Below, one piece after another: positions 25,003 to 25,261 of a stretch of 32,544 bases of DNA; within the stretch, counting starts at the first letter, position 1; the number at the start of each line of letters is the position of its first letter. Origin of the DNA: Saprospiraceae bacterium (lineage in GTDB: Bacteria > Bacteroidota > Bacteroidia > Chitinophagales > Saprospiraceae); NCBI GenBank assembly GCA_016787285.1, contig JAEUUV010000312.1:1-32544 (forward strand), given 5' to 3'. The notes beneath the pieces were generated by a model. The model did no database searches, was not told the origin of the DNA, and saw nothing but the letters and a program-made list of their open reading frames with translations. The position numbers were made by a program, and so were the translations under genes.

Positions 25003-25036
25003 TTTTGGATTTCTCAACCTAACCCGTCTATCCTTG
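25003..25036 (+). promoter_or_regulatory. Promoter of the metY leader (-33/-7)
   Basis: TTTTGG (25003-25008) and TATCCTTG (25029-25036) are 20 bp apart, the usual Bacteroidota -33/-7 geometry; the -7 box has one mismatch from TAnnTTTG. Transcription from near 25043 would give a leader of about 219 nt before metY, with the leader-peptide ATG 37 nt in. Confidence 0.6.
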
Positions 25037-25079
25037 CACCGCTAAATAACGCAGGCAAATGTCTTTCCTCTCGCAAAAT

Positions 25080-25157
25080 ATGATGTGGTGTATGTGTTGT
25101 CCCATGTGTGGCCCGGCCATACGAGGCGAGAGAGGATTGCCCTTCCACAGGACATAG
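25080..25157 (+). CDS. Met/Cys-rich leader peptide of metY (candidate attenuator)
   Basis: A 25-codon open frame in the metY leader, beginning MMWCMCCPMCGP and ending PFHRT before a TAG stop. Met is at 1, 2, 5 and 9 and Cys at 4, 6, 7 and 10, so eight of the first ten residues are Met or Cys, the products of the sulfur-assimilation pathway encoded downstream. Such composition is very unlikely by chance and is the mark of leader peptides that stall ribosomes when their amino acid is scarce. The coding region overlaps one arm of a hairpin (25098-25111 with 25145-25154), and an intrinsic terminator follows 27 nt after the stop. Translation is not proven; the RNA could also act as a riboswitch. 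Confidence 0.72.
   Translation: MMWCMCCPMCGPAIRGERGLPFHRT
25098..25154 (+). promoter_or_regulatory. Leader hairpin overlapping the Met/Cys peptide frame
   Basis: TGTCC (25098-25102) pairs with GGACA (25150-25154) and TGTGG (25107-25111) with CCACA (25145-25149), leaving a 4-nt bulge. A competing stem is CTCTCGC (25068-25074) with GCGAGAG (25126-25132). CTTCC (25142-25146) can also pair with GGAAG (25183-25187) at the base of the terminator, a possible though short antiterminator. Confidence 0.5.
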
Positions 25158-25183
25158 GTTATCGTTGATATACCAGTTTTTCG

Positions 25184-25226
25184 GAAGCCCTTTCACGCGA
25201 CTCGTGTGAAAGGGCTTCTTCTTTTT
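25184..25226 (+). terminator. Intrinsic terminator in the metY leader (attenuator)
   Basis: A perfect 13-bp stem (GAAGCCCTTTCAC at 25184-25196 and its inverse at 25206-25218) with a 9-nt loop is followed by TTCTTTTT. It ends 35 nt before the metY ATG and downstream of the metY promoter, so it must be conditionally bypassed for metY to be expressed. Confidence 0.82.
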
Positions 25227-25261
25227 CCGCACATTTTTTCACCAAACAAATACGCTATTCC

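Follow-up and report, generated by a model that had tools for sequence, protein, structure and literature searches.

A Met/Cys-rich leader peptide as a putative transcription attenuator ahead of metY in a Saprospiraceae bacterium, and its apparent coupling to SAM riboswitches in relatives

Ahead of metY in the window, the 32,544-nucleotide stretch of Saprospiraceae DNA analyzed here, lies what is very likely a ribosome-mediated transcription attenuator that senses Cys- and Met-tRNA. The frame, the terminator, a mutually exclusive pairing and the conservation of Met/Cys-run leaders at metY are computed; translation of the window frame is what we infer, as are the nature of the signal, the sense in which control acts and its timing. 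Control of methionine and cysteine genes is usually attributed to SAM riboswitches, T-boxes or repressors. Here, many members of the phylum appear to monitor tRNA charging at a sulfide-fixing gene by means of a peptide made of Met and Cys codons. Comparison with related genomes suggests that the window contains one of a widely distributed group of leader-peptide attenuators with Cys or Met/Cys codons, and the apparent coupling of such leaders to SAM riboswitches in relatives is a more surprising result than the leader of the window itself.

The metY leader in the window

The elements of the leader and the genes behind it are collected in Table 1. The gene upstream of the leader is on the opposite strand. 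Between metY and metX, inverted copies of CATTCCGAAGGAATCC were seen by eye at 26608-26630 and 26939-26965.

Table 1. Features of the metY leader and the genes that follow it
Feature	Position	Strand	Basis
Probable promoter: TTTTGG 25003-25008 and -7 box TATCCTTG 25029-25036	25003..25036	+	sequence; one mismatch to TAnnTTTG
Leader ORF, 32 codons, MSFLSQNMMWCMCCPMCGPAIRGERGLPFHRT	25059..25157	+	sequence; N-terminus like L006
Region 1: CTCTCGC, 5' arm of 7-bp stem around Met/Cys run	25068..25074	+	sequence pairing, duplex output
Met/Cys run ATG ATG TGG TGT ATG TGT TGT CCC ATG TGT, proposed stall site	25080..25109	+	sequence; run scores
Region 2: partner of region 1 (25126-25132) or region 3 (25126-28, 25130-35, 25142-46)	25126..25146	+	duplex computation, folding model
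Region 3: 5' arm of terminator, alternative partner of region 2	25183..25198	+	duplex computation, folding model
Intrinsic terminator, 17-bp stem 25183-25219, T-rich tail 25220-25229	25183..25229	+	terminator pattern scan
metY, O-acetylhomoserine aminocarboxypropyltransferase/cysteine synthase	25262..26593	+	PF01053; TIGR01326 above cut-off
metX-like homoserine O-acetyltransferase	27018..28124	+	best NCBIfam models MetX, below cut-offs
hom, homoserine dehydrogenase	28222..29400	+	PF00742; NF004976 above cut-off

The first-pass annotation of this DNA had proposed a 25-codon leader frame starting at 25080. The frame is present in the sequence (MMWCMCCPMCGPAIRGERGLPFHRT) and its start needs revision, as the ATG at 25059 is probably the true beginning, with the 25080 ATG internal and in frame. 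This start is favored because the N-terminus of the leader in the nearest relative, L006, whose MetY is 86% identical, resembles that of the window when read from 25059 (MAFISLSNMMMCCCMYC in L006 and MSFLSQNMMWCMCCPMC in the window; the L006 leader reads MAFISLSNMMMCCCMYCAQPRC...). The peptide encoded by the run is MMWCMCCPMC, with a Met/Cys-run score of 10.0, and 15 codons separate the last Cys from the stop. Scores of at least 9.5 were found in 51 of the 101 real metY upstream regions described below, in 0 of 20,200 shuffles and on 0 of 101 antisense strands.

A plausible promoter had also been proposed, and it still appears probable: its -7 box, TATCCTTG, has one mismatch to TAnnTTTG, which we take to be the Bacteroidota -7 promoter consensus, and no sigma-70-type promoter was found in the window leader. 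As this box is 22 nt upstream of ATG 25059, the leader start does not look leaderless-like. The terminator had been described as 13 bp with a U-tail ending 35 nt before metY; it does exist, with a longer stem whose end is 42 nt from the gene. By itself the terminator pattern is not rare, with 1 in the window versus a shuffle mean of 0.6 (sd 1.0). The whole leader folds at -68.8 kcal/mol (z -3.0; 2 of 200 shuffles were equally good), and the predicted fold includes the previously noticed hairpin that overlaps the final Met/Cys codons. No S-box or SAM-II core had been seen in the leader. An Rfam search of the window at gathering thresholds agrees, returning no match, SAM-I (RF00162) included, and a known riboswitch was rejected on this ground.

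Alternative pairing and proposed mechanism

The antiterminator formed by regions 2 and 3 comprises 14 bp in three blocks (-17.4 kcal/mol, z -2.3), and its significance against shuffles is only modest in the window alone (p 0.023). The 5-bp antiterminator proposed previously corresponds to the outer block of this duplex, so that the pairing stands and its extent grows. Among SAM-less metY leaders p was below 0.05 for 7 of the 23 tested, with a mean z of -1.5; these 23 are the 27 SAM-less leaders with a strong terminator minus L051, L053, L112 and L114, which have poor hairpins. The 7-bp stem between regions 1 and 2 is present in the window; a test of such stems over the set of loci did not support them, the mean z being -1.0 at metY and -0.2 at cysH.

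Stalling was modeled by removing the RNA upstream of a ribosome in the run. With RNA polymerase at 25199-25207, the antiterminator core (25130-35:25189-94) had a probability of 0.87-1.00 in the stalled-ribosome model and of 0.25-0.43 in the free-RNA model, in which the outer 5-bp block also forms. Once region 4 is complete the terminator dominates all modeled states (0.95-0.99), and the folding model therefore implies that the switch would have to be kinetic.

In the mechanism proposed, RNA polymerase would transcribe the short, Met/Cys-rich leader frame. Given an ample supply of charged Cys-tRNA and Met-tRNA, the ribosome would reach the leader stop, where region 2 would be masked or re-paired with region 1. 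Hairpin 3:4 (25183-25219) would then form and transcription would terminate ahead of metY. When charged tRNA is scarce, the ribosome would stall in 25080-25109, region 2 (25126-25146) would anneal to region 3 (25183-25198) before synthesis of region 4, and the polymerase would continue into metY and the downstream genes. The supply of cysteine and methionine would probably be read by the cell via the ribosome.

The trp, his and leu leader-peptide attenuators of enteric bacteria have a short frame rich in the pathway amino acid, and their antiterminator and intrinsic terminator are mutually exclusive. The window resembles them in that an amino-acid-rich leader frame is followed by exclusive antiterminator and terminator structures. 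It differs in its Met and Cys codons, its sulfide-assimilation genes and its Bacteroidota-type promoter, and in that pairing of regions 1 and 2 is poorly supported in its system. A second likeness is to the uORFC-8-2 motif before cysS in Rhodobacterales, for which excerpts of the source describe a leader frame that contains Cys codons, together with stems and an intrinsic terminator, as are seen here, and a proposed stalling at the Cys codons (PMC8632094). As excerpted, that motif has two tandem Cys codons and belongs to alphaproteobacteria and to cysS, whereas the runs here are long, consist of Cys or Met/Cys, and precede metY and cysH.

Met/Cys leaders in related genomes

Leaders were sought in up to 450 nt upstream of each of 101 metY genes from the family and order of the window, including 27 new loci and 60 regions fetched from a follow-up MetY search. 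Outside the 101 are MetY paralogues of about 50% identity and the closer matches in G198, G091, G174, G187, G234 and G067, as well as L018, L019 and L021-L034 (paralogues, broken or cut) and L043, where at first no ATG was found and a leader was seen afterwards. The best Met/Cys-run ORF scored at least 7.5 in 64 of the 101 upstream regions, compared with 11 of 20,200 dinucleotide shuffles and 0 of 101 antisense strands, leaving 37 regions below this threshold. A run score of at least 7 was found at 15 of 29 loci of the class outside the family, and the same score was reached at 6 of 8 loci in a second batch from elsewhere in the class or order and at 6 of 29 outside the class. The Met/Cys frames expected in the metY leaders of relatives were thus found and, together with the absence of an Rfam match, they lend support to the original suggestion of Met/Cys leader-peptide attenuation before metY.

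Directly before metX, a Met/Cys leader was found only at L261/L002 (G022) among 29 metX loci scanned; this copy has a Met-rich leader with one Cys and a terminator nearly like that of the window. At L012 (G049), metY is preceded by two consecutive Met/Cys leader frames, each with its own terminator. An MCCCC pattern match in the window's own genome (L161) was rejected by eye, as it has no long in-frame gene behind it and no leader-like context.

Five metY leaders of the same genus differ 12, 10 and 63 times at codon positions 1, 2 and 3 in pairs that are not independent, a bias that suggests that the leader is translated and its peptide under selection. Summed over ten groups of close leaders chosen by hand, the differences were 39/25/109, with little bias in several pairs, and the window versus L006 gave 3/3/1 over 7 codons, with no third-position bias. 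The N-terminus MKINxAxxNPxxFGNAV is common to the five same-genus leaders (L007, L008, L009, L010 and L016) at the amino-acid level, although plain attenuation requires just the codon run.

Conservation that codon counting does not need, in five genus leaders, would suit a nascent peptide that is itself the sensor on the ribosome, responding to a thiophilic metal or to redox state and, by its stalling or release, setting the hairpin choice in place of tRNA charging. The leader peptides are extremely rich in Cys and Met, and a nascent exported protein that senses copper is described elsewhere (PMC9973294). Strong leaders, however, precede metY and cysH and not metal genes, and the N-terminal parts vary freely between genera whereas the Cys run is kept, and sensing by the nascent peptide is judged unlikely. 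A frame arising by accident, with the hairpin acting as a constitutive terminator or as the 3' end of something upstream, would accommodate both the near-chance terminator pattern and the 37 relatives under threshold. It is nevertheless very unlikely, given run scores far above those of shuffles and antisense strands and the third-position bias in the genus; in addition, the upstream gene lies on the opposite strand. Finally, a new metabolite-binding riboswitch for SAM, Met or Cys with an incidental frame is extremely unlikely, for although methionine genes are frequently under riboswitch control and the leader folds better than shuffles, the window has no Rfam match and the leader DNA itself finds a match in just 2 of 60 relatives, one of them being the genome of the window, so that there is no conserved aptamer-like core and conservation lies in the codons.

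Attenuation by a leader peptide would have company in the phylum. In excerpts of the sources, Bacteroid-trp RF01692 is a leader element before an amino-acid operon in Bacteroidetes (PMC2864571), leader-peptide attenuation is noted ahead of amino-acid operons in Flavobacterium psychrophilum (PMC9723704), and short ORFs reminiscent of leader peptides are mentioned in Bacteroides (PMC7366714). The leaders described here are like the first two in being leader elements at Bacteroidetes amino-acid operons, and neither a Met/Cys leader nor metY or cysH is mentioned in the excerpted descriptions of those two. The word stem "Bacteroid-" is absent from PMC2965389 (2010). Searches of the open-access literature yielded no account of Bacteroidota metY or cysH genes with Met/Cys leaders.

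Poly-Cys leaders at cysH

Close cysH matches (E up to 1e-40) are present in 18 of 60 relatives and in none of the contigs of the window's genome; two of the proteins, checked with NCBIfam, are PAPS reductases above cut-off (NF002537). A poly-Cys leader with a terminator was found at 14 of the 18 loci, all 14 in the window's genus. Among the other four, L188 is cut off 71 nt upstream, and L191, L192 and L199 are without a leader. In these leaders CCGAAGCGGC or a close variant stands directly after the Cys codons and is a near copy of the terminator 3' arm CCGAAGGGC, and each of the two is able to pair with GCCCUUCGG. By sequence, the cysH leaders thus look like a textbook terminator/antiterminator triad, a cleaner sister of the metY case.

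The cysH antiterminator duplexes were better than shuffles, with a mean z of -3.2 and p < 0.05 in 13 of 14. L186, L189, L190 and L198 have a mismatch in the terminator 3' arm and an intact antiterminator; region 3 therefore seems to be kept for its pairing with region 2. The core of the triad is nearly invariant and shows little covariation. In 11 of the 14, a leader ATG follows 4-8 nt after the end of a perfect TAnnTTTG box, and these leaders are therefore probably leaderless. No SAM riboswitch was found at the ten cysH loci given to Rfam.

According to papers that cite Canestrari 2020, mycobacterial polycysteine leaderless short ORFs control sulfur genes by translational attenuation. Poly-Cys frames at sulfur genes, and the leaderless look of most cysH leaders, are common to both systems. 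The window and the cysH leaders instead have intrinsic terminators and, unlike the mycobacterial leaders as excerpted, the window has an ATG that is not leaderless-like and a Cys run that does not adjoin the stop.

Within the genus, Met makes up 0.08 of the run in the 14 cysH leaders versus 0.28 in the 8 SAM-less metY leaders (one-sided p 0.013), a difference that rests mainly on three loci because five of the eight metY leaders have at most one Met. Leader codons apparently tend to match the operon, being almost exclusively Cys ahead of cysH and a mixture of Met and Cys in many metY leaders.

SAM-I riboswitches in tandem with metY leaders

The riboswitch status is known for 77 strong metY leaders, 45 with an upstream SAM-I riboswitch and 32 without, the window among the latter; L143-L151 are excluded from this count, and at L051, L062 and L069 less than 450 nt was available upstream, where a SAM element could be missed. 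In the SAM-less leaders Met makes up 0.39 of the run on average, and a median of 8 codons follows the last Cys. The SAM-bearing leaders are nearly pure Cys (Met fraction 0.14), with a median of 0 codons past it. A strong terminator is present in 27/32 SAM-less versus 5/45 SAM-bearing leaders (Fisher p 7e-11, not corrected for descent). On a tree of 71 metY proteins the SAM state changes 7-8 times, and a descent-independent test of SAM presence versus Met content and terminator had two well-supported pairs (seven on all branches), with which significance is unreachable. The SAM-linked traits therefore appear strong in raw counts, and their independence from descent is not proven.

In the 45 relatives a true RF00162 member immediately precedes the leader ORF, and the first in-frame ATG of the leader is 2-18 nt (median 9) after the aptamer in all of them. 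The distance is at most 15 nt in 43, a spacing that Barrick and Breaker take to mark direct regulation of translation initiation by a riboswitch (PMC2258182, as excerpted). The arrangement differs from the usual SAM-I riboswitch in that the aptamer-adjacent start codon is that of the leader and not that of metY. Thus, at 45 metY loci a SAM riboswitch apparently gates a poly-Cys leader.

We lean slightly toward the view that Bacteroidota possess a two-input device in which SAM-I targets the start codon of the poly-Cys leader and not that of the enzyme, so that low SAM would license translation of the Cys sensor. Riboswitch-less lineages, including that of the window, would use an intrinsic terminator and often added Met codons, and Met and Cys supply would be integrated by a single peptide or by a tandem of riboswitch and peptide. 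If true, a peptide directly behind a SAM riboswitch would constitute a natural two-input gate in many species and a clear case in which sensing by riboswitch and sensing by codons replace each other; the short peptides would form a family that merits annotation. Cysteine sensing in these bacteria would become directly testable with simple reporters.

The tandem was also viewed from the side of the aptamer. In relatives, 60 of 101 listed aptamers were examined and 59 classified, one being cut off. A Cys leader follows 9 of the 59, seven of these before metY, one before a cysH-like gene (L243) and one at a contig end. The aptamers at L220, L241 and L250 precede metY and were not scored as having Cys leaders. 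None of the 59 has a Cys leader before metH-, metB-, metX- or hom-like genes, as named by eye from their first residues. Of 24 further SAM-bearing metY loci inspected by eye, 12 have a frame that begins at the aptamer and carries Cys codons close to its end; the other 12 lack such a frame.

Searches with Infernal under stricter filters found no SAM-I riboswitch in the window's genome or in the genomes of seven other SAM-less leaders of the genus (G004, G005, G008, G012, G014, G023 and G031). A SAM-I match is present in 15 of 37 genus genomes and absent from 22, the window's own included, and absence of SAM was therefore rejected as a mark of metY-leader genomes.

In excerpts of PMC1262725, Cys leaders of Actinobacteria have Cys-codon runs near the stop and no terminator hairpin, as do the SAM-bearing leaders; they belong to other genes and another phylum, and the excerpts mention no SAM riboswitch. 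The SAM-II riboswitch of Sinorhizobium, excerpted as acting on translation at a distance, is a different arrangement from the SAM-I/leader tandem (PMC9373788). The same open-access literature searches turned up no account of a leader peptide as the target of a SAM riboswitch.

In SAM-bearing metY leaders such as L048, L091, L102 and L108, 100-200 nt separate the leader stop from metY and there is no strong intrinsic terminator. Rho and translational coupling are candidates for the link between such terminator-less leaders and metY. At L128 (G446) and L133 (G341) other sequence lies between the SAM aptamer with its Cys leader and metY, which at L128 includes a 145-codon ORF. At L201, L204 and L227, short frames starting MPVSLRKK or MPVSMRKK begin 8-9 nt after the SAM aptamer; these are without a Cys run, and a metB-like gene is next. 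At L243 (G104), positions 1851-2576 hold a SAM aptamer, a leader ending CCCCCCC and then the cysH-like gene, and the tandem is therefore not restricted to metY.
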